From Phenylobacterium sp. (GTDB lineage: Bacteria; Pseudomonadota; Alphaproteobacteria; Caulobacterales; Caulobacteraceae): 64,000 bases of DNA. Where the stretch lies: NCBI GenBank assembly GCA_020402745.1, contig JADBYZ010000012.1:62001-126000 (forward strand), in the 5' to 3' direction. Position numbers and translations under genes: made by a program. Shown here piece after piece: positions 7,859 through 56,678 of this stretch (the stretch's first letter is position 1; the number at the start of each line of letters is the position of its first letter). Under the pieces are notes generated by a model that was given only the letters and a program-made list of their open reading frames with translations, had not been told where the DNA came from and did no database searches.

Positions 7859-7948
7859 GGTGCGGTGGCCGAGTGGTTGAAGGCGCACGCTTGGAAAGCG
7901 TGTTTAGGGGAAACTCTAACGTGGGTTCGAATCCCACTCGCACCGCCA
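7859..7948 (+). tRNA. tRNA-Ser (anticodon GGA)
   Basis: A 90-nt class II tRNA. The acceptor 5' strand GGTGCGG pairs with CGCACC, followed by G and an encoded CCA at 7946-7948. The D-arm reads GCCGAGTGGTTGAAGGC. The anticodon arm ACGCTTGGAAAGCGT has GGA at 7893-7895. A variable arm (TAGGGGAAACTCTA) and a T-arm (GTGGGTTCGAATCCCAC) are present. It reads UCC/UCU. Its 3' end is the left border of the inserted element: the last 8 bases plus CT recur at 55544-55553. Confidence 0.97.
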
Positions 7949-38787: not shown

Positions 38788-38803
38788 GTTTTCAGGAGAC
38801 CCC

Positions 38804-39889: not shown

Positions 39890-40320
39890 TGAGCGGGATC
39901 ATGGGCATGCTGCTGGGCGCGGGCGGCGCAAGCCTCACGGTGACCCGCGGCAGCTACGCTGAGATTGGCAAACTGAGCACCTATTACTGCGGCTACGACG
40001 CCTCGGTCGGGCTCTACGTGGACTTCGGGTCCATCGCCCCGGTCCCAGCCCTGTTCAATGGGGCGACAGTCAAGGCGGTCTATTCCTATGGCTTCGCCCC
40101 CAATGAGGCCATGGCCTACACGGTCATCGTCTCGGGCAACCGGGCCGCCGGATTCGTCACCGGCCTGACCATCAATGGCACCGTCGTCGACGGGACCATG
40201 AACGCCCCCAGCTACGACGCCCCCAACAACGAGACCGCCTTCACGGTCTTTGCCACCGTCACGGGCGAGACCCTGTTTGGTCTCTCCGACGGCCTGACCT
40301 CAAGCGTCTCCCTGAACTGA
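39889..40320 (+). CDS. Tail-associated hypothetical protein
   Basis: A 143-residue protein from an ATG overlapping the previous stop. It begins M-S-G-I-M-G-M-L-L-G-A-G-G-A and is otherwise beta-rich with many Ser, Thr and Gly (Y-C-G-Y-D-A-S-V-G-L). Composition and place fit a minor fibre or a collar of the fibre. No family recognised. Confidence 0.6.
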   Translation: MSGIMGMLLGAGGASLTVTRGSYAEIGKLSTYYCGYDASVGLYVDFGSIAPVPALFNGATVKAVYSYGFAPNEAMAYTVIVSGNRAAGFVTGLTINGTVVDGTMNAPSYDAPNNETAFTVFATVTGETLFGLSDGLTSSVSLN

Positions 40321-40331
40321 AGGCCTTACCC

Positions 40332-40487
40332 ATGACCGATGAAACCACCCCCACGCCTGCGGACCCGCAGGCGCAAGACGCCGTGCCTGATGCCCCGATT
40401 GAACCTCGTCCGCCGCGTCGACGGATCGGCGAGATCGACGGCGTCCGGGTCGAGCTGGAACTGCACGATCAGCCGGAGGAACTGTGA
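40332..40487 (+). CDS. Small Pro-rich hypothetical protein
   Basis: A 51-residue protein M-T-D-E-T-T-P-T-P-A-D-P-Q-A with a P-R-P-P-R-R-R-I-G-E-I-D-G-V core. The stop overlaps the next start (TGATG). Unknown function; kept because of clean coupling. Confidence 0.5.
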   Translation: MTDETTPTPADPQAQDAVPDAPIEPRPPRRRIGEIDGVRVELELHDQPEEL

Positions 40488-40948
40488 TGAAGAACGTCAG
40501 CTACCGTTACAGCGTCTGCCACGCCGATCGGGTGACGCTCGATGTCGGCGAGACCCTGACCTTTCCCCGCGGCTCGGCTGCGCGGTCCCTCGGCGTCCTG
40601 GTGCTGCAGGGCCGGCTGGAAAGCACCGAGATTGAGACCGGCGATGTACTGCTGCGCGAGCCCGAGCCCATCGGGTTTTTGAAACGGTTCTCAGGAACCT
40701 CACCCATCAGTGTGTTTGCGCCCGACGGCGCGGAGTGGTTCTGCCTGTCGCGCAACGACTCCGGCGACCGCGAGGTGGCCTGCCAGACCATCGACGGCGA
40801 GTTCACCCTGGCGGCCGGCTGGGGGCTGATCGTCGCGCAAGGTCAGGTCGTCATCGACGGGGTCGAGGTCGCGCAGGACCGGTATTTCAAGCCGCGGCTG
40901 ACAGACCTCACTGGCACCGGATCTGGGATCATTCTCCTTGTCCGCTGA
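40487..40948 (+). CDS. Hypothetical beta-rich tail-region protein
   Basis: A 153-residue protein, M-K-N-V-S-Y-R-Y-S-V-C-H-A-D-R-V, with alternating hydrophobic strands of a cupin- or jelly-roll-like type (L-V-L-Q-G-R-L-E-S-T-E-I-E-T-G-D-V). A GTG one codon before the ATG is an alternative start. No family recognised. Confidence 0.55.
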   Translation: MKNVSYRYSVCHADRVTLDVGETLTFPRGSAARSLGVLVLQGRLESTEIETGDVLLREPEPIGFLKRFSGTSPISVFAPDGAEWFCLSRNDSGDREVACQTIDGEFTLAAGWGLIVAQGQVVIDGVEVAQDRYFKPRLTDLTGTGSGIILLVR

Positions 40949-41180
40949 TCTGTCGCCGGCGGCCGTGGCCGCTCCGCGCCCAGAGACCGATCATGCCGAA
41001 ATGAAGCGGGAGCTGGCAGAGGTTCGCGCCGATATCCAGGCGCTGCGCACCGATGTGCAGGACCTGGTCTCGGCCTGGAAGACCGCCACGGGCGTCGTCA
41101 AATTCGTCAAATGGCTGTCGACCCTGATGGCAGCGATGGCGGTGATCTACGCCACCATCAAGGGCCTGGCTGGCCGCTAA
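40938..41180 (+). CDS. Membrane-anchored small protein (holin/accessory candidate)
   Basis: An 80-residue protein from a TTG at 40938 (an ATG at 41001 is an alternative). It has a coiled coil (M-K-R-E-L-A-E-V-R-A-D-I-Q-A-L-R-T-D-V-Q) followed by a C-terminal transmembrane helix (W-L-S-T-L-M-A-A-M-A-V-I-Y-A-T-I). It is next to the cell-wall hydrolase, so a lysis role is possible. Confidence 0.55.
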   Translation: MSADLSPAAVAAPRPETDHAEMKRELAEVRADIQALRTDVQDLVSAWKTATGVVKFVKWLSTLMAAMAVIYATIKGLAGR

Positions 41181-41195
41181 CCCCCGGAGACATCG

Positions 41196-41732
41196 ATGCC
41201 CCAGCTTCCTCCAGCCTATCGCTGGATCGACGAGGTGCGCCCGCTGCCCAGGATGGTGGCTGAGGCTTGCCGTCTCTTCGGCACGGTCGAGACGCCGGGC
41301 CCCGCCGACAACCCGGTCATTTTGGACTGGGCCAAGGAGGCTGGGCTCTCCAAGGCATATTCATCCGACGCCGTGCCCTGGTGCGGTCTCTTCATGGCGC
41401 TGATCGCCAAGCGCGCCGGCAAGGCCGCGCCGGCCAAGCCGCTGTGGGCCCGAAGCTGGAGCCGGTTTGGCATTGCCTCACCGCAAGCCGCGCTGGGCGA
41501 TGTGCTGGTGTTCGCCCGGGCCAAGGGCGGAGGTCATGTTGGCCTCTATGTCGGCGAGGACGAGACCGCCTTCCATGTGCTGGGCGGCAACCAGTCCGAC
41601 GCGGTCAGCGTCACCCGCATCGCCAGGAGCCGCTGCATCGCCATCCGCCGGCCGACCTACCAGGTCCAGCCAGCCAGCGTGGCGCCCGTTCACCTGGCCG
41701 CCTCGGGCGTGATCTCGACCAACGAGGCCTGA
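41196..41732 (+). CDS. TIGR02594/CHAP-like peptidoglycan hydrolase
   Basis: A 178-residue protein with the TIGR02594 pattern: D-W-A-K-E-A-G-L, D-A-V-P-W-C-G-L-F-M-A (catalytic Cys, about residue 67), L-G-D-V-L-V-F-A-R, and G-G-G-H-V-G-L-Y-V-G (catalytic His, about 114). It likely cleaves peptidoglycan peptides, as endolysin or as a tail-borne enzyme. GGAG precedes the ATG. Confidence 0.82.
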   Translation: MPQLPPAYRWIDEVRPLPRMVAEACRLFGTVETPGPADNPVILDWAKEAGLSKAYSSDAVPWCGLFMALIAKRAGKAAPAKPLWARSWSRFGIASPQAALGDVLVFARAKGGGHVGLYVGEDETAFHVLGGNQSDAVSVTRIARSRCIAIRRPTYQVQPASVAPVHLAASGVISTNEA

Positions 41733-41760
41733 TCTCGACCCTCATCACTGTTCCCAACCG

Positions 41761-41787
41761 TCCGCGCTCCTGCGGGCATTTTTTTAT
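41761..41787 (+). terminator. Possible weak terminator after hydrolase gene
   Basis: CCGC-gctcct-GCGG followed by GCATTTTTTTA. The stem is only 4-5 bp, but the T7 run after a GC hairpin is suggestive. Confidence 0.35.
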
Positions 41788-41798
41788 GGAGAAACGAA

Positions 41799-41993
41799 AT
41801 GGACGATCTCAAACCCTGGTGGACCTCCAAGGCCATCTGGACCGGCCTGATCGGCAGCGCCTGGGGCGTGGCTGGCACGCTTGGCCTGCTGCCCGACGGC
41901 CTCAGCCAGGCCGATGTGCTGACCGTGGTCCTGGCCATCACCGGCATTGGCGGGGTGGTCTTCCGCAAGACCGCCCGCGCTCGCATCGGCTGA
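41799..41993 (+). CDS. Holin-like small membrane protein
   Basis: A 64-residue protein. M-D-D-L-K-P-W-W-T-S-K-A-I-W is followed by two hydrophobic helices (residues about 14-30 and 38-55) with a short G-L-L-P-D-G turn and a basic C-terminus R-K-T-A-R-A-R-I. Size and two-helix topology fit class II holins. Lysis role is inferred from this and the hydrolase neighbour. Confidence 0.6.
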   Translation: MDDLKPWWTSKAIWTGLIGSAWGVAGTLGLLPDGLSQADVLTVVLAITGIGGVVFRKTARARIG

Positions 41994-41997
41994 TCTC

Positions 41998-42027
41998 GCT
42001 GGCGCAGGCCTTGTGGTCTGCGCCAGC
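41998..42027. repeat. 10-bp perfect hairpin after holin-like gene
   Basis: GCTGGCGCAG and its exact complement with a 10-base loop, right after the holin-like gene stop. No T-run follows; it may stabilise the mRNA end or attenuate. Confidence 0.55.
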
Positions 42028-42051
42028 CCTCATTTCCGAAAAGGTGCAGGC

Positions 42052-42363
42052 ATGACCAGGCTGACGATCCGCCGCGGCGGCACCAAGCGCCTGCGCGCGA
42101 CCTATTTCACCGATCAGCCGGCGGGGATCGTCCGGAACCTCTCCGGCCTGTCGCTGATCATCATCGACCAGAGCGCCAATATCGCCGCGCCCACGGTTTC
42201 GATCCTGACGCCGGCCAGCCTCGGCCAGATCCAGATTCTCTGGACCGACGACCAGACCGCCGCTCTCAACCGCGGGCTTGGCCGGGTCTGGCTGACCCTC
42301 GGGCTGGAGAACACCAGCGGGGAGCGTGAGGTCCTGCCGACCCTCACGTTTGATGTCGAATGA
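42052..42363 (+). CDS. Hypothetical tail-fibre-module protein
   Basis: A 103-residue beta-type protein: M-T-R-L-T-I-R-R-G-G-T-K-R-L-R-A-T-Y-F, then L-S-G-L-S-L-I-I-I-D-Q. It resembles small structural proteins that precede phage fibre genes, with an immunoglobulin- or baseplate-like look. It overlaps the next start (ATGA). Confidence 0.55.
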   Translation: MTRLTIRRGGTKRLRATYFTDQPAGIVRNLSGLSLIIIDQSANIAAPTVSILTPASLGQIQILWTDDQTAALNRGLGRVWLTLGLENTSGEREVLPTLTFDVE

Positions 42364-42653
42364 CCGCCGCGCTCCAGATCCTGGAGACGGTTCAGTCCCT
42401 CGTCGTTGAAACCGAAGACGGCGCCTTGACCCTCCTCATCGAAGGACAGGGCATCGCCGGGCCCGCAGGCCCCACAGGCCCCCAAGGGCCAGCGGGACCG
42501 CAAGGGCCTGCAACGCCGGCCACCACGCTCACCCAACTTGGCGATGTCACCGTCTCGGCCCCCGCGGTCGGCGACGTGCTGATGTTCACCGCCCCCCAGA
42601 ACCGATGGACCAACTCAAACGCGACCGGGCTGGTCGACGGAGGAAATTTCTAG
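42360..42653 (+). CDS. Short collagen-like fibre protein
   Basis: A 97-residue protein with a Gly-x-y stretch G-I-A-G-P-A-G-P-T-G-P-Q-G-P-A-G-P-Q-G-P near residue 35, then T-Q-L-G-D-V-T-V-S-A-P-A-V-G-D-V-L, the latter a repeat common in phage fibres. It ends exactly where the large fibre begins, so the two probably act as parts of one fibre. Confidence 0.65.
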   Translation: MTAALQILETVQSLVVETEDGALTLLIEGQGIAGPAGPTGPQGPAGPQGPATPATTLTQLGDVTVSAPAVGDVLMFTAPQNRWTNSNATGLVDGGNF

Positions 42654-44195
42654 ATGGCCAACACACTTCGCATCAAACGCCGCGCCTCGGGCGGCTCAGC
42701 CGGAGCGCCAGCCTCGCTGGCCAACGCCGAGCTTGCCTTCAACGAGCAGGACAACACCCTCTACTACGGCACTGGCACTGGCGGCGCTGGCGGCACGGCG
42801 ACGTCCGTCATTGCGATTGGCGGCCCGGGTGCTTTTGTCGGGTTGGCGGGCGATCAGACAGTCGCCGGCATCAAGACCTTCTCCAGCACCATTGGCGGCT
42901 CGATCACTGGCAATGCCGCGACCGCCACCAAGCTGGTGACGGCCCGGTCCCTGGCCCTTTCGGGGGATGTCTCAGGTTCGGCCAGTTTCGATGGATCGGC
43001 CAACGCCACCATCACGGCGACCCTCGCCAATAGCGGCGCGACCGCCGGGACCTATGGTTCGGCCACGCAGGTCTCCCAGATCACCGTCGATGCCAAGGGC
43101 CGGGTTACCCTGGCAGCCGGCGTCGCCATCAGCTTCCCGGTGGCCTCCGTGGCCGGCCGCACCGGCGCCATCACCCTGACCACCGCCGATGTGGCCGAGG
43201 GCGCAAACCTCTATTTCACCGACGCCCGGGTGCGCGCCAATCGGCTAGATCAACTGGCAGCGCCCACCGCCGCAGTGGCTATGAACGCCCAGCGGCTGAC
43301 CGGCCTTGCCGAACCGACGGCCGCCCAGGACGCGGCCACCAAGAACTATGTCGACCTGACGGTTCAGGGGCTCGATCCCAAGGCCTCGGTCAGGGCGGCC
43401 TCGACCGGCAACATCGCAGCGCTGACGGGCACGATGACCATCGACGGCGTGGCGCTCATCGCGGGCAACCGGGTATTGGTGAAGGACCAGACCACGCCAG
43501 CCCAGAACGGCGTCTATATTGTCGCTGCCAGCACCTGGGCCCGGGCAGATGATCTGTCGACCTGGGACGAACATGTGTCGGCCTATCTGTTCGTCGAGCA
43601 GGGCACGATCAACGCTGACGTCGGCTTCCTCTGCACGGTCGACAGCGGCGGCACGCTGGGGACCACAGCCATCGCCTTTGTCCAGTTCAATGGCGCAGGT
43701 CAGGTGGTGGCCGGCGCGGGTCTGACCAAGACAGGCAACAGCATCGATGTGGGTGCTGGCACGGGGATAGCGGTAAGCGCCGACAGTATCGCCCTGAGCG
43801 GCCAGGCTCTGGCGCTGCACAACCTCGCCACCAGCGGCCTGGTCGCGCGCACCGCGGCCGATACGGTGACCGGGCGCACGCTTACCGCCGGTTCGGCCAA
43901 GCTGACCGTCACCAATGGCGACGGCATCGCGGGCAACCCGACCCTCGATGTGAACGAGGCCAATCTCACCCATAACAACATCGGCGGCACGCTGGGCGTG
44001 GCCAAGGGCGGCACCGGAGCCACCACCCTGACCGGCTACATCAAGGGTGCGGGCACAGCCGCCTTCACGGCCTCGGCCACCATCCCCAGCACCGACATCA
44101 CTGGGCTCGGCACCATCGCCAGCCAGGCTGCCAGCAATGTCGCCATCACCGGCGGCACGATCGACAACATCACTCTGGATGGCGGCACCTTCTGA
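42654..44195 (+). CDS. Tail fibre protein
   Basis: A 513-residue Ala/Thr/Gly-rich protein. The start [17 protein letters not shown] matches the head-fibre/tail-fibre N-terminus (shared with the next gene: [11 protein letters not shown]). Repeats of [21 protein letters not shown], and [11 protein letters not shown] are typical fibre motifs. It likely binds the host receptor. Confidence 0.75.
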
Positions 44196-44746
44196 TGCCC
44201 AACACCCTGCGCCACAAACGATCGACAGCTGCGGGCGTGGTTCCGACGACGGCTGCCCTGTCGCTCGGCGAGCTCGCCATCAACACCTATGACGGCAAGC
44301 TGTACCTCAAGAAGAACGTCTCGGGGACCGAGACCGTGGTTGAGATCGGCGCGATCACGTCTGGTGGGGTTATCGCGGCGCTCGGCTACACCCCGGCCAA
44401 CAAGGCGGGCGAGAGCTTCACTGGTGCGATCTCGGTGGCCGGGTCGATCACGGCGACTGGCGACGTGACAGCCTATTCCGATGCGAGATTGAAGACCGAT
44501 GTGGCCGCCATCGCCGGTGCGCTGGAGCTGGTGCGGCAGATGCGCGGGGTCCGGTATCAGCGCCTGGACACCGGCGCGGCAGGCATCGGGGTCATTGCCC
44601 AGGAACTGCGCGTGGTGGCGCCTGAGCTGGTCGCCGAGAACCCGGACGGCCTGCTGTCGGTCGCCTACGGCAATCTGGTCGGGGTGCTGATCGAGGCGGT
44701 CAAAGAACTGGCCGCCAGGGTCGAGACGCTCGAGACGCGCCCATGA
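44195..44746 (+). CDS. Tail fibre with S74 intramolecular chaperone domain
   Basis: A 183-residue protein. The C-terminal about 95 residues form an S74 peptidase/chaperone domain: A-Y-S-D-A-R-L-K-T-D-V (the S-D-x-R-L-K cleavage site, with Ser as nucleophile), L-V-R-Q-M-R-G-V-R-Y, G-V-I-A-Q-E-L-R-V-V and a C-terminal coiled coil V-K-E-L-A-A-R-V-E-T-L. Such domains trimerise fibres and cut themselves off. It repeats the N-terminal motif of the previous fibre, perhaps by duplication. Confidence 0.82.
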   Translation: MPNTLRHKRSTAAGVVPTTAALSLGELAINTYDGKLYLKKNVSGTETVVEIGAITSGGVIAALGYTPANKAGESFTGAISVAGSITATGDVTAYSDARLKTDVAAIAGALELVRQMRGVRYQRLDTGAAGIGVIAQELRVVAPELVAENPDGLLSVAYGNLVGVLIEAVKELAARVETLETRP

Positions 44747-45204
44747 CCCTGCAGTCCTCCGGCGCTATCTCGCTGTCGAATGTATCCGTGGAGCTGGGGC
44801 GCAGCACGTCTGCGACCACATCCCTTGGCGAGGCCGCGGTCCGCACTCTGGCCGGCGTCGCATCCGGCCCGATCTCGCTGTCGAACCTCTATGGGAAATC
44901 CAACGTGTCGTTCACGCCAGCCGGCGGCATGTCAGCTGGAACAGCTGTGGCTCTGGAAGATGTGCGCTCGACTGGGTCTACGATCACGATCAGCTGCTCT
45001 CAGCCTGCAACATGGACCCACAGCAGGACTGGAGGCTTTGCCGGGGCGGCAAACGTCGCGTCCGGTGGCACCGCGAGCTCGATCCGGTTCAATCTCAACA
45101 ATACGACCTTCGCGCCGCGGACTTCGCAGTGGACGGTGTCAGGAACAGCCGGTGGGGTGACCCGACACTGGCTGGTGACGCTGACAGCGGAAGGGCTGGC
45201 TTGA
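44743..45204 (+). CDS. Hypothetical fibre-module protein
   Basis: A 153-residue protein: M-T-L-Q-S-S-G-A-I-S-L-S-N-V-S-V-E-L-G-R, then G-P-I-S-L-S-N-L-Y-G-K-S. The repeated I-S-L-S-N pattern is common in small phage structural proteins. Last gene of the late operon; its stop faces the defence island, with a 12-bp gap. Confidence 0.6.
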   Translation: MTLQSSGAISLSNVSVELGRSTSATTSLGEAAVRTLAGVASGPISLSNLYGKSNVSFTPAGGMSAGTAVALEDVRSTGSTITISCSQPATWTHSRTGGFAGAANVASGGTASSIRFNLNNTTFAPRTSQWTVSGTAGGVTRHWLVTLTAEGLA

Positions 45205-45216: not shown

Positions 45217-46176
45217 CTAAATCGCTCCGCCCGTCAGCTCCTCATCCTCGATCGGGATGGGCGAAGCGTTTTGCCCTTCCTCCCATTCGGCATAGGTACG
45301 GCCATCCGGCAGACGCCATGAAACGCGCCCGTTGGCGCTGGCCCCGGTCACCGCCGCAGCAGCTGATGAAACCGATGGGAACATGTAGTCCGAGGTAAAG
45401 ACTAGGGCGTCCTGCTGCTCGAGCAGTATGCCGCTCGTGACCAGGTCAGCCCTCAGTGCAACAGTGCCCTTGGGAATGGTGGGCGTTGTCTTCAGCCTGG
45501 CCCGAGACCCTTTTTTGACAACGATTTCGCCGCTGGGAGTCACCGACATCTGTCCTGCGAACCCTTGGCCGCGGAACTCAAACTGCACGCTTTCCGCCCA
45601 AGACGGCGAAGGGGTGGTGCTCTTGGGCAGGCTGGAAATGTCCCCCGAGACGACCTTGAACAGGTCGCAACCCAGCGCTCCAACCAGGGTCTTGGTCTGA
45701 TCAATGAACTCTTCCATGGCCGCCCTGTCAGGCAGCGGGAGCTTGCCCTCCTCGCCGGCCTTCTGGGTGTTCTGCAACTGCCAGCGGGGGTTCAGGCCGG
45801 CGTCCGCAATCAGGCGCGCTTCCACGTAACGGGCGTGCGACTTGGTGAGGTTCTCGTCCTTGCTGACCATCGCAATGGTCTCGACCCAGAAGGGCTTGCC
45901 GCCTTTCCCCTTGTCGTTGCCGGCGTGGTATTGGAGCCGGTCGGCAACGCATTCGGACTCGCCGATATAGGCAAGGAGCCGATCCGGCTGGGTCTCGTCA
46001 AAGCCGAGCAGCATGTAGACGCCCGGCCGCGCTAACTCGGGAAAGGTGCCGCGCACCTGCTTCATCTGCAGCTTGCGGAAGGCGATAGCCTGGATCGTCG
46101 ACATCGAGATCTGAGCGACCCGGATGCCATCGGGGTCGCCGTCGAGCAGGAAGATGTTGATTGAGCGAGGCCTCAT
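45217..46176 (-). CDS. GIY-YIG nuclease with DUF4357
   Basis: A 319-residue protein. The GIY-YIG region is seen near residues 50-80 as [10 protein letters not shown] and A-Y-I-G-E-S-E (the usual Y-x-G pair), with a downstream E-A-R-L-I-A-D-A as the likely metal Glu. The C-terminal part has the DUF4357 motif [20 protein letters not shown], then W-R-L-P-D-G-R-T. It may be a nuclease acting with the Mod/Res pair, or an accessory. It overlaps the res stop (ATGA) and closes the operon. Confidence 0.8.
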
Positions 46177-49100
46177 GCCGTCTGTCCCGCCGACGCTGAC
46201 CGGCTTAAACCGACCACCTCCATCAGCTTTCCGTAGTCCGTGACGACGTCATACCGAACCGGGTCGGTGGATGCGCGCTGCCCGATTTCGTCGAAGAACT
46301 TCCGCGCGCAGGCGATCTTGGTGGACTCTATCTCGCGCAGCTTGAGCGAGGACATTGTCCCCTTGGTCTCGGCAACGAAGTAGACGTGCTTGACGGTGCC
46401 GACCTTGAACGAGATCGCCCAGTCCGGGTTGTAATCGCCGACAGGGGTCGGAATCAGGAACCCGCGAGGAAGCTTCGCATAGACGACGACCTCGTCGCTC
46501 GTATCAAGCTCCTCCACGAACCTCCGCTCGATATCTGAGTCCGTGACGACGTAGTCGTAGACATGGTTTTTCAGTTTCGAGCCGACCTTGGAGAAGTCCT
46601 GACCTGACTGGTTGGCCGTGAATATGTCGACCTCGTATCTGTCCTCGACACCGTCATAGGCCAGGCGCTCGATGACCATCGTGGCCTTCTGTTCGGAGAT
46701 GATTCTGGAAGCCTCGGCAATGAAATGCTCGGGGTTCTGGCGGAACTGAGCAAAGATGCTTGGCTCCATCCCGGTCAGGATTTGCGCAACGGTCTGACGG
46801 GTGAGATGGGCGTTTTCGGCGACCTTGCCCAGCAGGTCGTACTTCACCTGCGAATAGACGGACCCACCGCTCTCGGTGGTCGTATTGGTCACCTTAAAGC
46901 CGTCGCCCGCCTTGAGCTGATCGTCCGTGATCTCGTCGCTCTGAATGCCTGTTTGGACAGTGTACTGCAGCGGCGTGACCCGGAGCTGGCTATCGAGCGC
47001 ACCGACGCATTTGCGAACGAGCTCGTCGGAATCAAACTCCACCCGATAAACTGCTTTGCGGTTGATCCGGCCCCAGAGCTCCTGGAATTCCTTCTTGTCG
47101 AAGTTGGCATTCAGCGGATTGGTCTTCGGCTTCCGGCCGTCTTCAACCTTCGGCAATTGGGCGTTGCTGAACACGCTGTCGATCAGCTGGAAGACCTGAT
47201 CGGCATAGGGCTTCAGATCATCCGGAAGCGCCGCCAGCGTGCCTGCGGTCTTGGCCTCATGGTAGCCAGCCGCGATCTGGTCAGTGTCATCGGTGTAATC
47301 GTTCTTCACCAGATACCGGTAGATCTGCTTAGCCAGGGCCGGAGTGATCTGGACCGGACCATTATCGGTGGCGACCGTCTTGCCGGTGAAGTAGGCCTCC
47401 GTTGCCTTCCTCGGGCGCGACGACAGGGTATCGGCAATCTCCTTCTGGAGCCCCCCGACAAAGTCCTTGTAGCTCTCGCTGGCCACAACGGTCAGAACGT
47501 TGATGTCGTGTACCACCGCAGGGTGGTCCATGCGATCGCCATCCTGGTTGACCGACAGGCGTAACCCGCGACCGACTTCCTGCCGCCGCGAGATCATGTT
47601 GTCGCTGTGCTTCAGCATGCACATCACGAAGACGTTCGGATTGTCCCACCCTTCGCGGAGCGCGGAGTGGGAAAAGATGAACCGAGTCGCCTCGGCGAAG
47701 GACAGTAGCCGCTCCTTGTCCTTCAGGATCAGATCATAGGCATCCGTGTCGTCGGAATCGACGGACTTCGCCCCTACGTCAGGATTCTTCAGTCGGTTGG
47801 TCTTCTTGTCGATCGAGAAGTAGCCATTGTGGGTCTTGGTGGCGTCGATGCCGGCCAGGTGCTTGCGATAGGCCTCGTTGTCGATCGCCAGCTCCGACAG
47901 GTATTCCGTCTTCAGGAGCTCATATTCCTCCTCGAAAACGCGGGCATACTCTCCCTTTTCGTCCGCCTGATCGTAGTCGCGGTACTTGGCGACCTCGTCG
48001 ATGAAGAACAGGGACAGCACCTTGATCCCTTGGGAAAAGAGCTGCTTTTCCTTGTCGAAATGCGCCTTGATCGTCTCCCGGATCTGGATGCGACGGATAT
48101 CCCGCTCGGACACGTCACCGGTGGCCTCGCCGGCCGACAGGATCACGCCATTGGTGAATTCGACGGTGTCGTTGTTGTAGTCGATCTGGGAGATGGTGAA
48201 GCCGCGGTACTGATCGAGGTCACCGGACAGAGTGAACAGGTCGTCGCGGAATTCCAGCCGGCGGACCTGACGCTTGATCTCGCCGGTCTTGAGCTTGACC
48301 TCCAGCTCGATGCGGGCGACCGGCGCCTTCTTCGAGATGTCGATCCCTTCGAGATAGAGGTAGGCATTGGTGCCAGCCAGGCCGCGGGTCTGGATGCCGC
48401 GCACGGAGATCTTCTTCACCAGCTTCTGGTTATAGGCGTCCAACGCATCCAGACGGTGAACCCGGTTGTGCTGGGTCTTATGGGTCGCTGAATAGCGCAG
48501 GATCATCAGCGGCTTGAACTTCGGCAGGGACTCCGTCGTCGCCTTGCCCTCCATCTTCTGCGGCTCGTCCAGGATCACGATCGGCCGGTTGCTGGCGATC
48601 ACATCGATGGGCCGCCGAGACTGGAAGTCGTCCAGCTCGTCGTAGATCCGGCGGTTGTCAGCACCCCTGGCGGCGAACGCCTGGATGTTTATGACCATGA
48701 CGTTGATGCCGGCGTCAGACGAAAAGCTCTCTAGCTCGTGCAGGCGCTTTGAATTGTAGATGAAGAAGCGCGCCTTCTTGCCGTAGCTTTCGGTGAAATG
48801 GTCCGCGGTGATCTGGAGCGACTTGTAGACGCCCTCTCTGATCGCGATGCTCGGAACCATGATGATGAACTTGGACCAGCCATAGCGCTTGTTCATCTCG
48901 AACATGGTCTTGATGTAGCAATAGGTTTTGCCGGTGCCCGTTTCCATCTCCACGTCGAGGTTGAATTTGCACCCCGCGCTGGCGACCAGGCCGTCGGAGA
49001 TGGGCAGGTTCTGGCGACGCTGGATGTCCTTGATGTTGGCCAGGACCTGAGGCTCGGTCAGCTGAAGGTCGGCGTTCTTGAAGCCTTCCTCAAAGGCGCT

Positions 49101-49229
49101 GGTCTGCGCCTTGCGGCCGGGGTCGATCCTGTAAGCGATGCCACCTGTCATCAGCTGCCCGGCAAAGCAGTCGACGACTGCCTCCACAGCATCAGTCTGA
49201 TAGGGCTGGACCTTGAACTTGAGCTTCAT
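46173..49229 (-). CDS. Type III restriction enzyme-like helicase-nuclease (Res)
   Basis: A 1018-residue protein of the type III Res type. Helicase parts are M-E-T-G-T-G-K-T (Walker A, residues 95-102), [11 protein letters not shown] (DExx motif), R-Y-S-A-T-H-K, and [14 protein letters not shown] (motif VI). The C-terminal nuclease is Y-N-P-D-W-A-I-S-F, then Y-F-V-A-E-T-K-G (PD...ExK). It should translocate or switch on DNA and cut when two unmodified sites meet. I start at [11 protein letters not shown] (ATG 49229), 11 bp after the mod stop; an upstream extension is an artefact. Confidence 0.9.
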
Positions 49230-49239
49230 GCCGAGCCCC

Positions 49240-51219
49240 TCAGATCGACTTGATGTCGGTGGCGGGAGAGAGCTGGCGGAAGATCTGTTCGACGTTGATC
49301 TTAACAGCGTCCGATACAAAGCCGTTGTCGCGGAAGACCACACGCAGTGGCTCGTGGCCGGCCAACGCCTTTACAAGCTCCTCTGTTACGCCGGTGTCGA
49401 AACATGCTGCCAGGGCGTTGTCGTCGACGAAGAACACGGTCTTGCCTTGCACCGTCTCGCGTCGGATCGGCAGCGTCAGGTCCACGCCCCAATCTACCAG
49501 CACCTGGAACAGCATGTCCTCGGCGGTGCGGCCTTCCTTCACGTTGTCGACCATGTCGAGCAGGTCCGCACGCTTCAGCTCATCTGGGCGGTAATAGACG
49601 TCCTTCATGTTGGACGTGTCCACCTTGAGCACTCGGAAGCCGACATCGCGGTTCCAGTCAGGGTGGCATTCACCTTCGAGAATTTTCTTTCCGGCGCGAC
49701 GGATGCGGTCCTTGCAAAGGTCAGCGATGGTCGAGTAGCCGGCCGCCCGAGCCAAGCTTTCGTCTGCAGTATCTTCCGGAATTTGAACACTTATGCATTG
49801 GCGGTTTCCACCTTGCGTGGCGTTTGCGTAGAAAACTCCATGCGCAGTCGATCCAGAACCGGCGAAGAAATCCATTATGATATCGTCGGGTCCAGAGAGA
49901 TAATTCACTAAAAGGGAAATATCTTTATAGTTCTTCGGGTTCTCAAAGACACGAGATCCATCGAATAACTGCTCAAACTCCAGCGTGGCTGTTTGGGCAT
50001 AGCTATATCTTACAGAAGTTAATACCTGATCATTATTTTCAAACAGGTTTGTTCGAACCCTCGGAACTGTAGTTTCATCTTCCCCAAAGACAATGCGGCC
50101 CCTCTCGACCTCTTCGTCAAAGCGCTTTTTGGTTGGATACCGCCAGCCGCTCTTGGGCAACTTGCATGGTTTTCCTGTGACCGGGTGCAGCACTTCGTAC
50201 GTCGGTCCGCCTCCGCCAGGCCAGTTGATGTTACCATCATCCCGATATGGGCCCTTTTCATCTACCTTGGTAAAACGGGCTAACGGGAGTCTGGCGTCAT
50301 CTTCATCAAATGTCCTGTAAAATTCTCTCAGGGCAGCGGAAATGTTAGACCAGTCCTCACCGTGCTCTTTCCGTAGATCGGAGAATAAATCCCTTACCTC
50401 TTCGACGCCTACTTTCGGTGCTCGGAGCTTAATGTCGTGATCCTTAAGCTCTTGGAGAGATTTTACATAAACGAGCATGTACTCGTGACCTACTGAAAAA
50501 TACTTGGCATCATTCTTACGGTTTCGGTCCCAAACCAAAGCAGCGACGAAATTTTCCTCTCCAAATATCTCGTCCATAATCCTCTTGAGAGAATGGCATT
50601 CGATATCATCGATGCTGACTGCAATGAATCCATCATCCCGCAACAGATTTCGCGCGAGTTTTAGGCGCGGATAAATCATCGACAGCCAGTCAGAGTGAAA
50701 CCGGCCGTTGGACTCAAGATTCGCAACGAGCTTGTTTCCGCCAATGTCAGATTGCATCGACCTTTGGAAAAAGGTGCGCGTGTCTACTGAGAAGTCGTCG
50801 TCATAAACGAAGTCGCCGCCCGTATTATAAGGCGGGTCAATGTAGATTAACTTTATAGATCCCAAGTACGAGACCTGAAGAAGTTTCAGAGCATCAAGGT
50901 TGTCACCCTCGACAAATATATTTCGAGTGCCGTCGAAGTTGATACTCTCGTTCGCTGTTGGACGAAGCGTTTTGGCAATCGGCGCATTCGCTACGGTCAG
51001 AGACTCCCGTTTTCCCGGCCAGTCTAGCCGATACCGCTCTTGCGGCCCCTCTACGATTTGGTCACTCAACTCCTGACGTAGCTGATCGAAGTCTATCGCC
51101 AGACGTACTGCCCCCGTTGCCTCATCGCGCGCCTCGGTCACGCAGCCGGGAAACAGATCGCGGATCTTCGCGACGTTCTCGTCCGTCAGGTTCGGGCTGT
51201 GCATCTTGAGCTTGTCCAT
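49240..51219 (-). CDS. Type III-like DNA methyltransferase (Mod)
   Basis: A 659-residue N6-adenine-type methylase. Motif IV is [10 protein letters not shown] (residues 126-135), motif I comes later as [15 protein letters not shown] (near 450), which is the beta-type order of Mod proteins; the part between acts as target recognition. It marks host DNA and lends specificity to Res. DNA from about 49780 to 50950, mainly this central part, is visibly more AT-rich than its flanks, as if swapped in. The start is ATG 51219; a GTG at 51240 overlaps the previous stop. Confidence 0.9.
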
Positions 51220-51232
51220 CGTCGTCGTCCCC

Positions 51233-51928
51233 TCACTCACTCGTGGCCGCCATCGGTGCGCTTGCCCGGGTGAGCCGTTCCATTTCCAGTTTGGCGTCGC
51301 GTAGCTCGGCGTTGATCGCCACGCGTTTGTTGAATTGTTTCTCGCGGTTCAGCCGCAATGTGATCCGCTCGATTTCACGGGTTTGCGCCCGGACCGCTTC
51401 GAGCCGAGCGACACGCTCCTGGATAGCGCCGTCCGTCCGGACCTGGGCTGGCATCATCGCCGTCAGGAGCTTGTCGTATAGTCCCCCGAGGTCGAGGGCG
51501 ACGGGAAGCGCATCTCGCGGCGCACCTTCGCTGGTCCAGTCGGTCGAGAAATACTCGCTGATCACCCACTTCGACGCGTCGGCTTCGCTGGGTCGTTTGA
51601 AGGTGGCCGTCGCGCGCCGCTTACCGGACCAGGTCAGTTCGAAGATGATCGGGAACGGAATAGCCCGGTCGATCGCCCGCAGGATGTCTTCGTTCGGTGA
51701 GCCGGTCCGCAGGCTGATTTCGAAGATCTGGATTTCCGTGACTGCCGAGGTGGCGGCCAGGTTGATGGTCTCAGGGGCCAGCTTGAACCGCCAGACGATC
51801 TGGTCGACCTGTGTGACGAACAGCTGTTTCAGTCCCGCGCTTGCGCCGGCGTGTTCATAGATCTTGTTCTTTGGCAGAACCCGGCCGAACGCAGCACTCC
51901 TGGGATAGTCGAACAGGCCTGCCGTCAT
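51233..51928 (-). CDS. DUF4391 protein
   Basis: A 231-residue DUF4391 protein. It begins M-T-A-G-L-F-D-Y-P-R-S-A-A-F-G-R-V-L-P-K-N-K-I-Y and contains F-E-L-T-W-S-G-K-R-R-A-T-A and a C-terminal coiled coil (R-E-I-E-R-I-T-L-R-L-N-R-E-K-Q-F-N-K-R). The family is small, of unknown function, and usually linked with helicase and methylase genes. The coiled coil suggests it bridges other subunits. Its ATG overlaps the helicase stop. Confidence 0.82.
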   Translation of the reverse strand: MTAGLFDYPRSAAFGRVLPKNKIYEHAGASAGLKQLFVTQVDQIVWRFKLAPETINLAATSAVTEIQIFEISLRTGSPNEDILRAIDRAIPFPIIFELTWSGKRRATATFKRPSEADASKWVISEYFSTDWTSEGAPRDALPVALDLGGLYDKLLTAMMPAQVRTDGAIQERVARLEAVRAQTREIERITLRLNREKQFNKRVAINAELRDAKLEMERLTRASAPMAATSE

Positions 51929-54900
51929 GGCGCGTCCTCGAGGATCACGACGAAGGCGACCAGTTCGAAGTCGCTGAGCCCCGCGATCGTGTTCGTGAGC
52001 GCTGTGGTGCTGCCGCCGCTGAACAGGCTGTCGAGGTCCTTTTCTTCCTTCACCTCGATCATCGACCGGATGGCCGAGCTGAGCAGGTCGGAATAGCCCG
52101 CCATGTTTCGGCCGTCCTGGGTTTGCTCGTTGAAGAGGCGGCAAACAGCCTGGATCGGCTCGTCCTCGCCCTTGCAGCTCGTGCGGACCAGATCGAGCAG
52201 CCGCTTGGCCTCTGTGTGGTCAGCGATGATCTCGCCGTCGCGGCCGATATAGACCAGGTAGTAGGGATGCAGCCGGTTCTGCTGGTTTGTGTTCACGCTG
52301 TCGTGGATGTTGCGCAGCGCAAAGATCACGCCTGGCTGCAGGCCTAGCTCGGGCTTCGCCGGCACCACGGCGTGCATGCCGCGAGGCACGTTTTCCAGCT
52401 CGCCATTGGCCTTCACGTAATTGAGCAAGTCCATCCGGAAGTCGTTCAGACCAAGGTCGGTGATCGAGATCCCCGTCTTGACGTCTTCCAGCTCGATGAC
52501 CTCGTCCTGCAGGCGCCGCAGTTGGTCCTTGCGGTAGGCGATCTCGCTGCTCTTTGCGGTAAGGACATTGTCGTCGCCCGTCGCCGTCACATCGGCGATC
52601 ACCATCCGGTTTTCGACGCGTTCCTTCAGGTTGATGTACTCGTCGAGGGTGATGTCCGGCCAATAGTTCGCCAGCTGGATCTGGCTGTTCGGCGACCCGA
52701 TGCGGTCGATACGGCCGAAGCGCTGGATAATCCGGACCGGGTTCCAGTGAATGTCGTAATTCACCAGGTAGTCGCAGTCCTGAAGGTTTTGGCCCTCGGA
52801 GATGCAGTCGGTGCCGATGAGAATATCAATCTCGGCCGGCTCCTCGGGCAGGATCGCGGCTTTTTCCTTCGATCGCGGCGAAAACAGCGTCAGCAGCGAC
52901 TGGAAGTCATAGCCTTTGGCCAAGGTAGATTTCGGCCCATCGGAGCCGGTGACACGCCCTGTATGCAGACCCTTCGTGCGCAGCAGCTCGGCGGCGATGT
53001 TTTCATAGAGGTAGTTGGCGGTGTCGGCGAAGGCCGTGAAGATCAGGACTTTCTTGTTTCCCGGGTTCAGCGGGGCCTCGATCTTGCTCGCGATCAGGGT
53101 CTTGAGATGCTGGAGCTTGGTGTCGTGCTCAGGCGTGATCAGCTCCATCTCCCGGGTCAGCTCCTCGATCAGGAACAGGTCGGAGCGAAGGTCGTGCTGC
53201 CAGGACTGGACGTCCATGTCCGAGAGGCTGATCTGGATCTTGCCCCCGACCTTGAAGTCGCCCAGGTCCCCGAACTCATCGTCCTCGGGCTCCATGTCCT
53301 CAAAGTCTGCGGTGTAGTCCGACACCTTGAGGGAGCCGCCGTTGCGTTCAAACTCGGCGATAGCATCCAGGGTCTTGTTCAAATTGGCCTGAAGGGACTT
53401 CAAGGTCAGGCGGAAGGCCTCGACGGAGCTCTCCAGCCGCTTGAGCAGGTTCGTCGTCATGAGCGCCTGCAGGCTGCGCTCGCGGTCGATCTGTCGGAGC
53501 TTGCCGCGGCCGCCCTCGACCTGGGTGTCGTAGAGCTGTTCGTATTTGCTGAGGCGGCTGGGCAGGATGTAGCTGATCGGCGCGTAGACCGCGAGTTTGA
53601 GCAGGGTGAGCTGGGCCACGATGCCGTTCAGGTCCATCACGCCGGGGCGGCTGGTAAGCGGGCAGCGGAACGACAGCGGCTTACGGCGTTCCGGAAACTT
53701 CCCGATGTCGGTGGTGTCGTAGAACGTCTCAATGTGTTTGCGCGACCGGGCGATGGTGACGCTGTCGAGCAGCTCGAAGAAGTCAAAGTCCAGAGCCTGA
53801 AGAATGGCCTGTGCGGTGCGTTCCTCGTTGGGGAGCTTGGACCACGCGTTGAATGCAGCCTGGGCGCGGCGGAAGATTTCTTCGACGCTGTTTTTGCTCT
53901 TGAGCTTCTTGGTCAACGCCTCGGACTGGCCTTCATAGGCGAGCGCCAGCTGGTTGCGCAGGTCGTTGAACCGGTTGTTCACCGGCGTCGCCGACAGCAT
54001 CAGCACCTTGGTCTTCACGCCCTCGCGGATGACCCGGTTCATCAACTTCTGATACCGGGTCTCCTTCTCCTTGAACGCATCGTTGTTCCGGAAATTGTGG
54101 GACTCATCGATGACCACGAGGTCGTAGTTGCCCCAGTTTACCCGGTTGAGCGGGATGCCGTGGGAGACGCCCGAGTTCCGCGAAAGGTCGGTGTGGCAAA
54201 GGACGTCGTAGTTGAAGCGGTCCCTGGCGAAGATGTTGGTCTTCAGGTTTGTGTTGTAGTTCAACCAGTTATCCGACAGCTTTTTCGGGCAAAGCACGAG
54301 CACAGACCGGTTGCGAAGTTCGTAGTATTTGATCACGGCCAGCGCTGTGAACGTCTTACCCAGGCCAACGCTGTCAGCGAGGATGCAGCCGTTGTAGGTT
54401 TCCAGTTTGTTGATGATGCCTGTCGCGGCGTCGCGCTGGAAATTGAACAGTTTGTTCCAGATCTGAGTGTCCTGATACCCGGTGCGGTCGTTAGGCAGGA
54501 CGTCTTCATCGATGTCTTCGAGGAACTCATTGAAAATATTGTAGAGCATCAGGAAGTAGATGCGTTCGGGCGAATTCTCCTGGTAGACGGACTCGATGTG
54601 GTCGCAGATCGCAGCAGTGACATCCTCAAGCTTCGTCGGGTCAGCCCAAATCTGGTTGAAGAGCTGGAGGTAGGTTCCGGTGTGGACTGCCTCGTCGAAC
54701 CGGTTGACGAAACTGGAGACGGCGTCGCCCCGCTGGTAGCCAAGATCCACTGCAGTGAAGCCGTTCAAGGGCATGTAGGCGACATCGTCTGCCGCACCGG
54801 TGACGCAGACAAATTGCTGCATCGGGGCCTTTGATTTGTTCGACCGGAACTTGGCCTTCCTACGAATCCAATCCGCACACTCGCGGGCGACAGCGCGCTG

Positions 54901-55200
54901 GGTCAGCTTGTTGCGGAGCTGGATCTCGAATTCCGACCCGTAGAGGTTGCTCTCGCGGTTGGCCTTCGGGATGAAGAACTCGCGCCGCTCCTTGCTCACC
55001 TTGTCGGTCACTTCTGTCGGCACGAAGGTCGGGGCCGTGAAGATGAACTCCAGACCGTCGATCCGGGCGAGCTCAGACTTCAGGGCCTCGTAAGCATAGA
55101 TGGAGAAGCATGAGGCTGCGATCTTGAGCTTCGATCCCTTGGCGAGCGAGCCCTTGAGATCATCGCCCAACAGCGAATTGACGTTATCAATGATCTTCAT
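51925..55200 (-). CDS. SNF2-like helicase with unusual N-terminal domain
   Basis: A 1091-residue protein. Residues 1-240 resemble the phospholipase D-like N-terminal part found in related helicases (K-L-K-I-A-A-S-C-F-S-I-Y-A-Y-E-A-L), but no H-K-D motif is visible, so it is probably not catalytic. The motor has G-C-I-L-A-D-S-V-G-L-G-K-T (Walker A, 275-284), V-V-I-D-E-S-H-N-F (365-369), L-M-L-S-A-T-P-V-N-N, and near 830-870 G-T-D-C-I-S-E-G-Q-N-L-Q and Q-R-F-G-R-I-D-R-I-G-S. It is likely a DNA translocase of the island. It starts 3 bp after the HTH gene stop. Confidence 0.85.
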   Translation of the reverse strand: MKIIDNVNSLLGDDLKGSLAKGSKLKIAASCFSIYAYEALKSELARIDGLEFIFTAPTFVPTEVTDKVSKERREFFIPKANRESNLYGSEFEIQLRNKLTQRAVARECADWIRRKAKFRSNKSKAPMQQFVCVTGAADDVAYMPLNGFTAVDLGYQRGDAVSSFVNRFDEAVHTGTYLQLFNQIWADPTKLEDVTAAICDHIESVYQENSPERIYFLMLYNIFNEFLEDIDEDVLPNDRTGYQDTQIWNKLFNFQRDAATGIINKLETYNGCILADSVGLGKTFTALAVIKYYELRNRSVLVLCPKKLSDNWLNYNTNLKTNIFARDRFNYDVLCHTDLSRNSGVSHGIPLNRVNWGNYDLVVIDESHNFRNNDAFKEKETRYQKLMNRVIREGVKTKVLMLSATPVNNRFNDLRNQLALAYEGQSEALTKKLKSKNSVEEIFRRAQAAFNAWSKLPNEERTAQAILQALDFDFFELLDSVTIARSRKHIETFYDTTDIGKFPERRKPLSFRCPLTSRPGVMDLNGIVAQLTLLKLAVYAPISYILPSRLSKYEQLYDTQVEGGRGKLRQIDRERSLQALMTTNLLKRLESSVEAFRLTLKSLQANLNKTLDAIAEFERNGGSLKVSDYTADFEDMEPEDDEFGDLGDFKVGGKIQISLSDMDVQSWQHDLRSDLFLIEELTREMELITPEHDTKLQHLKTLIASKIEAPLNPGNKKVLIFTAFADTANYLYENIAAELLRTKGLHTGRVTGSDGPKSTLAKGYDFQSLLTLFSPRSKEKAAILPEEPAEIDILIGTDCISEGQNLQDCDYLVNYDIHWNPVRIIQRFGRIDRIGSPNSQIQLANYWPDITLDEYINLKERVENRMVIADVTATGDDNVLTAKSSEIAYRKDQLRRLQDEVIELEDVKTGISITDLGLNDFRMDLLNYVKANGELENVPRGMHAVVPAKPELGLQPGVIFALRNIHDSVNTNQQNRLHPYYLVYIGRDGEIIADHTEAKRLLDLVRTSCKGEDEPIQAVCRLFNEQTQDGRNMAGYSDLLSSAIRSMIEVKEEKDLDSLFSGGSTTALTNTIAGLSDFELVAFVVILEDAP

Positions 55201-55203
55201 GGG

Positions 55204-55368
55204 TCAGGCCTCGCCACGCTCTTGCGCGGTGATCCACCGGTCGATTTCACTCTTTCTGAAACGCCAGGAGGCGCCAACCTTGAACCCGGGGATCTTGCCT
55301 TCGGCCGCCAGGCGATAGGCCGTCTTTTCAGCCAATTTGAGGTACTCGGACACCTCCTTGATGGTCAT
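55204..55368 (-). CDS. Small HTH (excisionase-family) regulator
   Basis: A 54-residue HTH_17-type protein, read directly: M-T-I-K-E-V-S-E-Y-L-K-L-A-E-K-T-A-Y-R-L, then G-K-I-P-G-F-K-V-G-A-S-W-R-F and D-R-W-I-T-A-Q-E. The HTH plus the K-V-G-x-x-W-R-F wing is classical. It stands first in the operon, with GGAGAG before the ATG at 55368, and is likely the local regulator of the island. Confidence 0.85.
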   Translation of the reverse strand: MTIKEVSEYLKLAEKTAYRLAAEGKIPGFKVGASWRFRKSEIDRWITAQERGEA

Positions 55369-55886
55369 CACGTCGCTCTCCAACTGCCGACTCCATCAGG
55401 AGGGTTGTCCGTATTTGAGAAAATAGGGAAAACCTGGGTAGTCGGCAACTGCAATCAGAACAAGCGTGATGTGCGAGCTGCTCAATGGGTTGTGCCCGCC
55501 CGGTGGCCAAGGATATGCGATAGTTCGCCTTCAGGCTCTCTTCCACCGCCACTTCCCTGTTGCGAACCTGCAATCGGGCGTCCGAAGGGGCGCAAAGCCC
55601 CCAGTCGTCACGCCGCTCTCCGGATGCTATCAGAACCTTGGAGACCGGGGCGCTCGGCTGAAGCTGGCTCTTAGCGCAGTGTGTCGCTGATCACCCCAAC
55701 CTCGCCCTCGGCGGTTCGGATTCAGAGCAGTCAGCGTTTACAGCGTTGCGGGCTGATAAAAGGTCCGGAAGTTCGCGGGCGTCGTTTCATCCAACGTGCA
55801 GATTGAAGAGCCGAAGCCCTTTCACTTGCCGGCCAGGTTCCTGCTCTTCAAGGTCTGCCGTCTGGTAGCCAGGTTCAGAGGGAGCC
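55369..55886. other. Gene-free region with operon promoter and right att repeat
   Basis: About 520 bp without a believable gene. The left part must hold the promoter of the defence operon (AT-rich stretch about 55412-55435, TTTTCCCTATTTTCTC on the minus strand). From 55544 it carries the diverged direct repeat. Confidence 0.6.
55544..55809. repeat. Diverged direct repeat, right copy (att-like)
   Basis: Begins CACCGCCACT, identical to 7941-7950, and follows the same order of blocks as 7941-8206, at about two-thirds identity by eye. It marks the right border of the element. Confidence 0.6.
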
Positions 55887-56678
55887 ATGTCGCTGAGTCA
55901 GGACGTACTGGATCGCATCATAGAGCGCTTGCGCGCGGCGGAGCCGAAGCTGCAAGCGGTGGTGCTCTGTGGCAGTCACGCGCGCGGAGAAGGCGCGCCC
56001 TTCAGCGATATCGACATCATGGCGCTCACCGATGGCCCTCCCAAGAGGCAAGAGAGGGCATGGTTCGAGATCGGGATGGAGGGGCAGATGCTCCACGTTT
56101 CGGTGGGCGCTGAGTCATTGGAGGATTTCGAGGAAGCGGAGACAGAGACGGCGAGTTGGGCCCTGGGCTTCCCTGTCGAGGACACCATGCGGCTCGCATG
56201 GGCAACGGCCAAGGGACGTGCCGTGCTTGGCGACGATCCGAGCGAGAGGTTGCCTGCCGGGACGCCGGAGCTCGAGGACTTCGTCGAATTCTACATGAAG
56301 GTGCGTCGCGCGGAGGCGACAGATGATCGCCTGCTTCTTCGCTGGGCGGCGCGAAACCTGGCCGAGTATGCCGCTGGCCTGCTGAGGCCATTCAATCCCG
56401 ACGTCAATGTTCGCACCCCTATCGAAGCGCTGAGGGTCGCGCTGAGCTTTGAGGAGGCGCCAGAGCACTTCCGCCACGATGCGGAGATTTGCATGGGCTT
56501 GTCTCCGACGTTGGAGCCGCAGATTGCGCAGGCGGCGAAGCGGCTGGTGGCCGAGACCCTGAGTTTCCTGCGCGAGCGACTGGGCGCCGAGGACTTCGCG
56601 AACGACGACATCAGAGCCGCATTACGGGATGGAACGCTGGAAGCCTACGTGTCGTCGCCTCATCCTGCCGCGCTCTAG
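55887..56678 (+). CDS. Nucleotidyltransferase-domain protein
   Basis: A 263-residue protein. The polymerase-beta-like motif is V-V-L-C-G-S-H-A-R-G-E-G-A-P-F-S-D-I-D-I (near residues 24-43; G-S and D-x-D). The rest is helical with a P-E-L-E-D-F-V-E-F-Y region and a C-terminal substrate-binding part. Candidates are an aminoglycoside-type or MNT-type adenylyltransferase; no HEPN partner lies next to it. It is the first chromosomal-type gene after the element, with GGGAG before ATG. Confidence 0.8.
   Translation: MSLSQDVLDRIIERLRAAEPKLQAVVLCGSHARGEGAPFSDIDIMALTDGPPKRQERAWFEIGMEGQMLHVSVGAESLEDFEEAETETASWALGFPVEDTMRLAWATAKGRAVLGDDPSERLPAGTPELEDFVEFYMKVRRAEATDDRLLLRWAARNLAEYAAGLLRPFNPDVNVRTPIEALRVALSFEEAPEHFRHDAEICMGLSPTLEPQIAQAAKRLVAETLSFLRERLGAEDFANDDIRAALRDGTLEAYVSSPHPAAL

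Follow-up and report, generated by a model that had tools for sequence, protein, structure and literature searches.

The 64,000-nucleotide stretch of DNA analyzed here (the window) comprises positions 62,001–126,000 of contig JADBYZ010000012.1 in the Phenylobacterium sp. assembly GCA_020402745.1, and it carries at 45,217–55,368 an island of six genes dominated by restriction-type functions. All six open reading frames (ORFs) are co-directional on the minus strand, running from 55,368 to 45,217. The first (55,204–55,368) encodes a helix-turn-helix (HTH) protein of 54 aa, which matches Pfam HTH_17 (E 4e-18) and reaches 79.8 bits with the NCBIfam model MAD1, for which the cut-off is 80. After a gap of 3 bp it is followed by the gene for an SNF2-family ATPase of 1091 aa (51,925–55,200; SNF2-rel_dom, E 8e-12, and Helicase_C), which overlaps by 4 bp the gene for a DUF4391 protein of 231 aa (51,233–51,928; PF14335, E 2.5e-55). 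Next come Mod, a beta-class DNA methyltransferase (49,240–51,240; N6_N4_Mtase, E 1.6e-27; PADLOC MTase_III, E 1e-217; EcoP15I Mod 4zcf, E 5e-82), and, 10 bp further, Res, an SF2 ATPase with a C-terminal endonuclease domain (46,173–49,229; ResIII; RE_endonuc, E 5e-33; EcoP15I Res 4zcf, E 1.7e-71). Mod may start at GTG 51,240 or at the inner ATG 51,219; the latter is likelier, and counted from it the gap to the DUF4391 gene is 13 bp. The last gene overlaps Res by 4 bp and encodes a GIY-YIG/DUF4357 protein (45,217–46,176; hereafter GIY; DUF4357, E 1.7e-15), residues 1–301 of which match positions 13–296 of the 301 positions of the PADLOC model PDC-S14 (E 2.5e-85).

The island is cargo inside a prophage of ~47.6 kb that occupies a tRNA-Ser gene, and it adjoins the attachment site attR. 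The attachment (att) sites are a 62-bp direct repeat with 90% identity. The attL copy (7,941–8,002) has its 10-bp identical core (7,941–7,950) at the 3′ end of tRNA-Ser (7,859–7,948) and includes the last 8 bases of that gene, and the attR copy lies at 55,544–55,605 (core 55,544–55,553); beyond the repeat a weaker similarity (78%) continues for ~180 bp. Eight proteins encoded between the repeats were tested, and all have matches to phage families, including a terminase, a major head protein, a tape measure protein, and the integrase, a serine recombinase by its DNA-invertase matches (8,683–10,164, minus strand; phrog_95, E 4e-103). In the congeneric genome G689 the joined outer flanks are contiguous (450 of 451 bases, 87%) and the locus aligns with both of them; it is therefore an empty site. 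An earlier note on this stretch had described six closely spaced minus-strand genes at the end of a prophage. The ORF positions and domain matches bear out the layout, and the att repeats together with the empty site in G689 place the island, more exactly, within the prophage.

Four of the genes, in the order SNF2–DUF4391–Mod–Res, are a conserved unit (the quartet). A genome scan with an alignment of 15 DUF4391 sequences detected 446 relatives, of which the best 80 were kept, so that the set leans to relatives of the window; one locus, L018, was left out as the same phage. Among the 79 loci counted (best 80 of 446 less L018), SNF2 was present in 79, Mod in 78, and Res in 71, and the eight loci lacking Res, one of them also lacking Mod, all end at most 0.9 kb past the last core gene. 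In a sample of the order, DUF4391 was found in 11 of 299 genomes, accompanied by SNF2 in all 11 and by Mod and Res in 10; in the remaining genome the DUF4391 gene sits on a 4.5-kb contig. A sample of the phylum yielded DUF4391 in 23 of 398 genomes. There, 22 further loci were examined, with a 51-residue fragment (L214) left out, and SNF2 was present in 18/18 loci with upstream sequence, Mod in 20/21 and Res in 17/18 of those with enough downstream sequence. Twenty-three loci on viral contigs contained SNF2 in 20 cases, Mod in 20, and Res in 18. DUF4391 is the constant partner of the SNF2 gene.

The range of the quartet includes Actinomycetota, Bacillota, and one archaeon. It is annotated on plasmids of Methylotuvimicrobium, Raoultella, Escherichia coli, Phaeobacter, Acinetobacter, Lactococcus, Weissella, Mycolicibacterium, and the archaeon Methanomethylovorans, several of these copies having further genes interspersed; in an Acetobacter copy no Res is annotated after Mod. 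A megablast search of 5,426 complete E. coli genomes detected the SNF2–DUF4391 pair of one E. coli plasmid in 10, and in nine of these it is plasmid-borne. Insertions also occur among the 79 loci: the gap between DUF4391 and Mod exceeds 250 bp in 12, genes stand between Mod and Res in 15, and others follow Res. Representatives of these inserted or trailing genes match SIR2, Mrr, OLD/Gabija-type, SLFN_AlbA_2, PDC-S02, HEC-05, and MkoA-type models, and two of ten inserted-gene representatives had no PADLOC match. A SIR2-type gene recurs with the quartet (L056, L064, L039, L040, L045, L052, L053, and L097); it follows Res directly in seven of these loci and separates DUF4391 from Mod in one. No description of the quartet was found in the open-access library searched, outside of which most subscription journals fall. 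In that library DUF4391 itself was met only in a host-range table (PMC7784981), which lists it as enriched among hosts that do not permit growth of the epibiont TM7x (3/3 versus 1/10 and 1/10); this enrichment would fit a role in defense.

The N-terminal domain of the SNF2 protein (~240 aa) is conserved, and the helicase motifs are invariant in at least 97% of 101 sequences. PADLOC assigns the full-length family to “HKD+Snf2” (model C3a139, residues 3–1054, E 4e-130). An active HKD nuclease in this protein is not supported: no PLD model of Pfam matched at E ≤ 0.01, an HxK triplet is present in only 20 of the 101 N-termini, and hhalign gave a probability of 0.2% against one single PLD-SNF2 sequence that has PLDc_2, which is a weak test. 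For DUF4391, searches returned no relatives in the PDB at E ≤ 1 and no match to PADLOC models at E ≤ 0.01.

The homology of Mod and Res to EcoP15I (4zcf) spans most of each protein. Mod is of the beta class, with DPPYNTG at residues 135–141 and DFFAGSGS at 457 conserved around a variable centre, i.e., with DPPY before the FxGxG-type motif and the target recognition domain (TRD) in between, as in type III enzymes. Res, adjoining mod, combines SF2 ATPase motifs with a PD-(D/E)XK nuclease; its ETGTGKT (Walker A), DEPQ, and PD...ETK segments are conserved in at least 97% of 88 sequences, and we take the last to be the nuclease motif. This resemblance to EcoP15I argues that the quartet is an extended type III restriction-modification (RM) system.

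The centre of Mod is hypervariable (~residues 212–503, 49,732–50,607, minus strand), includes the TRD, and has no blastn match in otherwise similar islands. In comparisons with the islands L019, L020, and L021, DNA that is ~86–93% identical flanks a gap at ~49,730–50,605, which is the centre of mod; the protein identity of the centre is 15–46% in L019 and averages 0.32 over 74 loci. The TRD of EcoP15I, given as residues 263–384 in the part of the structural source drawn upon (PMC4490356), maps inside this centre in our alignment. A search with the centre retrieved many Mods with less than 60% identity and no known specificity. We conclude from these comparisons that SNF2 and DUF4391 do not carry the sequence specificity, because they remain near-identical while the specificity segment is replaced. 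The same contrast appears in pairwise distances over the 74 loci with all four proteins aligned, evaluated with 500 permutations and with shared ancestry still included. The distances of SNF2, DUF4391, and Res intercorrelate at 0.91–0.93 (SNF2 versus Res, 0.93) and correlate with the outer parts of Mod at 0.75–0.76, whereas those of the Mod centre correlate at 0.13 with each of the three and at 0.30 with the outer parts of Mod; every one of these values exceeds all 500 permutations.

The GIY gene travels independently of the quartet. It was detected in only nine of the 79 quartet loci, and PDC-S14, found in 23 of the 299 genomes of the order, co-occurs with DUF4391 solely in the genome of the window. 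Fifteen of the 22 other loci in the order were fetched, seven weaker or broken matches being omitted, and their neighbors were labeled by hidden Markov model (HMM) and phmmer matches, some with modest scores, and for some by Pfam. On these labels GIY stands beside restriction-type genes in 15/15 loci, an uncontrolled raw count, and in 14 of them a methylase or a type I/III gene lies within ~3.1 kb, mostly with GIY inside a type I/III operon; in L169 it is antiparallel to its restriction-type neighbor. In L163 (11,555–17,320) GIY lies beside a true PLD-SNF2 helicase, with HGK present, and a DUF1156 protein, presumably a methylase; this locus is a different SNF2 system sharing the GIY accessory. 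Among 17 closer viral loci, 11 have restriction-type genes upstream and six are contig edges, helicase fragments, or loci with none. Altogether, the gene was found beside type I, IIG, III, and BREX genes.

An alignment of GIY relatives shows invariant G52, Y54, Y70-I71-G72, R80, E119, and N136, which we take to be the catalytic positions of GIY-YIG nucleases. PF01541 matches all 14 aligned relatives at E ≤ 1 (best 1.7e-5), and a PDB search with the alignment gave two weak matches (E 0.22 and 1.1).

Related phages keep GIY next to their tail genes but have type IIG or BREX genes in place of the quartet. In the viral contig L262, which is 94% identical to the window over 38,123–44,900, GIY stands at the same place as the last gene, and a type IIG enzyme, a helicase, and a T5orf172 protein (441–7453) replace the quartet between GIY and an att half-site that shares 37 bp with the window at 94.6%. 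In L266, ~71–74% identical to the tail genes, BREX genes pglX-pglZ-brxL run into GIY, and in L265 type I genes are divergent from it. L019 has the HTH gene and the quartet and no GIY; L020, in a Brevundimonas metagenome-assembled genome (MAG), has all six genes. In the prophage of the window GIY is the tail-side border of a cargo slot. A circular permutation of L020 was considered and dropped, as the att/tRNA end of its prophage lies at ~51.6 kb of the same contig, and we take the outer integrase match there to belong to another element.

The HTH protein, encoded by the first gene of the operon, is a probable regulator to judge by its sequence and position. A MAD1-like HTH was found by HMM in 17 of the 79 quartet loci, and the different SNF2 genes of Eco86II type, considered below, are likewise preceded by an HTH annotated as mads1. 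A motif scan gave 6 promoter-like sites versus 3.0 expected and 5 terminator-like sites versus 10.4 expected, with none of either kind between the HTH gene and attR; it showed no separate promoter for GIY and did not exclude one.

Much of what the earlier note proposed withstands these comparisons. A restriction-type island with a type III core, carried in a prophage, agrees with the att sites and the homology to EcoP15I; the large N-terminal domain of the SNF2 helicase proves real and conserved in the alignment of 101 sequences; and the extra translocase and DUF4391 are standing parts by their co-occurrence and correlated divergence. The note also took all six genes for one machine and supposed that GIY and HTH might be the new variation, and neither idea is supported: GIY accompanies few quartets and several restriction types, and a MAD1-like HTH was detected in a minority of quartet loci, with an annotated mads1 HTH also ahead of other SNF2 genes. 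The note would have given up its view if the helicase and GIY genes were independent neighbors with separate promoters; the helicase is not an independent neighbor, in favor of the note, and GIY is one, against it.

Based on these results, we consider it likely that the island is a prophage-borne extended type III system, in which SNF2 and DUF4391 form a second motor module and GIY is a separate accessory. This reading is drawn from the constant gene order, the homology to EcoP15I, the conserved motifs of Res, Mod, and SNF2, the correlated distances, the prophage boundaries and empty site, and the other contexts of GIY. By homology to EcoP15I, Mod would recognize and methylate a short site, with its specificity in the swappable centre, and Mod–Res would cut unmethylated incoming DNA through the Res nuclease. 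SNF2 and DUF4391 would act as the constant, sequence-blind second motor module; their roles are inferred, and at this weakest step of the scheme they most likely help the complex to move on, clear, or load DNA that is protected or bound by phage factors. The HTH protein would probably set expression from the start of the operon, GIY would be an exchangeable accessory nuclease common to several kinds of restriction, and the system as a whole probably helps the lysogen to exclude competing phages.

Several observations weigh against this scheme. In L237 a DUF4391 gene has no Mod or Res in the following 9.6 kb and is followed instead by a zeta-like kinase gene and insertion sequence-like ORFs (named by reading the sequence), and in L119 and L120 the match is confined to the C-terminus of DUF4391, the other quartet genes being missing. 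The correlation of the Mod centre beats all permutations and is weak rather than absent, and shared ancestry accounts for part of the correlated distances. The GIY-YIG domain of the window protein itself lies below the Pfam cut-off (16.6 versus 22.6 bits, E 0.01). Finally, according to the consulted sections of Murray et al. (2021; PMC8259958), the extra ATPase of Eco86II is dispensable for methylation and was unseen in the partly purified enzyme, which argues against an obligatory motor if both classes work alike.

The most serious competitor, to our mind an unlikely one, is that two restriction arms share one methylase, so that an ordinary type III Mod–Res pair would stand next to SNF2–DUF4391 as a second ATP-driven arm reading the Mod mark, as has been suggested for RM-like systems whose effector is an HKD-SNF2 protein. 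The PADLOC label of the SNF2 protein points this way, as does the association of a different SNF2 class with related Mod–Res pairs; in addition, Type-2 BREX-related systems are described, in the part of the source available to us, as pairing HKD-Snf2 with an N6-methyltransferase and a small DUF3780 protein (PMC12839542). However, neither a PLD domain nor a conserved HxK was detected in the SNF2 N-terminus, and the six proteins contain no DUF499 or DUF3780, save a partial PADLOC match to DUF3780 in the GIY protein.

Less probable still is one machine of six genes. The 4-bp overlap of Res and GIY, the common direction of all the genes, and the same six in L020 speak for it, but the rarity of GIY in quartet loci, the near-complete separation of PDC-S14 from DUF4391 within the order, and the related phages that have GIY at the same position without the quartet speak against it; on this distribution we reject the six genes as a single unit. 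The least credible alternative makes SNF2 and DUF4391 hitch-hikers, or regulators outside restriction. Many type III systems do consist of mod and res only, and the failure to detect the Eco86II-class ATPase in purified enzyme would suit such a view; yet the order is constant in Bacteria and Archaea, and the divergence of both proteins is strongly correlated with that of Res.

Compared with EcoP15I-type systems (Mod2Res1), with which it shares homologous Mod and Res and the adjacent mod-res order, the window adds a constant SNF2 and DUF4391 upstream of mod, its system is carried by a prophage, and its res is followed by GIY-YIG. Phage P1 likewise carries a type III system, EcoP1I. The closest published kind is the Eco86II class, in which the gene for an additional helicase-like SF2 ATPase lies on the 5′ side of mod-res; such systems are described in more than 500 genomes, and their Mods are said to make N4-methylcytosine (m4C) (Murray et al., 2021; PMC8259958). 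In the NCTC86 chromosome (5,046,030–5,055,447) we found SNF2–Mod–Res with DUF4391 absent, and we infer this locus to be Eco86II. Its 963-aa SNF2 aligns with that of the window over helicase segments only (29–33%) and is without the N-terminal domain, and a blastp comparison of its Res with that of the window gave no match at E ≤ 1e-3. Membership of the quartet in this class is rejected on the basis of this putative Eco86II locus, as the ATPase is not the same and DUF4391 stands between SNF2 and mod. The genome of the window also contains a second system, L252 (G000:C1:268001-288000), with SNF2–Mod–Res and no DUF4391; its SNF2 is 46% identical to that of NCTC86 over the full length, and its Mod and Res share their family with those of the quartet (32% and 36%). 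These SNF2 comparisons indicate that two different SNF2 classes accompany type III genes, and, judged by sequence, the quartet with DUF4391 differs from the Eco86II type with its one extra SF2 ATPase.

Other known systems share single traits with the island. Type-2 BREX-related systems likewise combine an HKD-labeled SNF2 helicase, a methylase, and a small DUF protein, but a DUF499 ATPase and DUF3780 are among their parts, and the consulted portion of the source does not describe them with Mod–Res (PMC12839542). Membership in them is rejected, since DUF499 and DUF3780 are absent from the six proteins by Pfam; the partial PADLOC match to DUF3780 falls in the DUF4357 part of GIY, and a search for DUF3780, for comparison with DUF4391, gave 0/200 genomes, its controls giving no match either. 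DISARM comprises drmA, drmB, and drmC around a helicase and a methylase; none of the six proteins has DrmA/B/C as its best match, and DrmD and DrmA models match the SNF2 protein partially, in its helicase domain, so we reject this membership as well. MADS consists of mad1 with mad2–mad8; here only the HTH protein is similar to mad1, missing the NCBIfam cut-off by 0.2 bits, and this membership is rejected too. PDC-S14, to which GIY belongs, is labeled a candidate single-gene defense family; its neighbors in the loci examined here are type I, IIG, III, and BREX genes. The cargo slot resembles the antiviral hotspots of P2/P4-type phages, where exchangeable defense cassettes occupy one position and the P4 cargo includes type III restriction (Rousset et al., 2022; PMC9122126), but it belongs to another phage lineage and is bounded on one side by the att site and on the other by a resident GIY-YIG gene that neighbors the tail genes.

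In almost all of the loci examined, DUF4391 is a marker of the quartet. What a second motor does in type III restriction, a question that Murray et al. (2021; PMC8259958) left open, becomes testable in a compact mobile operon, and the repeated association with GIY-YIG suggests that systems usually studied apart share one back-up nuclease. More tentatively, and with somewhat less than an even chance of holding in full, type III restriction may have adopted a sequence-blind SNF2 motor at least twice, once with DUF4391 and once alone in the Eco86II class; GIY-YIG/DUF4357 may be a back-up nuclease that plugs into many methylase-based systems (types I, IIG, III, and BREX); and one phage lineage may serve as a cassette dock of att, exchangeable system, GIY, and tail genes, where swaps affect entire systems as well as the specificity segment of Mod.

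The locus left out of the counts, L018 (JADCCX010000089.1), is a contig in a Methylocystis MAG. Two stretches of it, of 14.4 kb and 1.9 kb, were compared with the window and are 100% identical; it is the same prophage, probably misbinned. Both ends of this contig (47,875 bases) lie exactly 141 bases beyond the 10-bp att core, which suggests an assembly break at a k-mer of 141; empty and filled sites would therefore have coexisted in that metagenome. Just outside attR, in the chromosomal flank and beyond the island, an ORF at 55,887–56,678 reads like a nucleotidyltransferase-domain protein.

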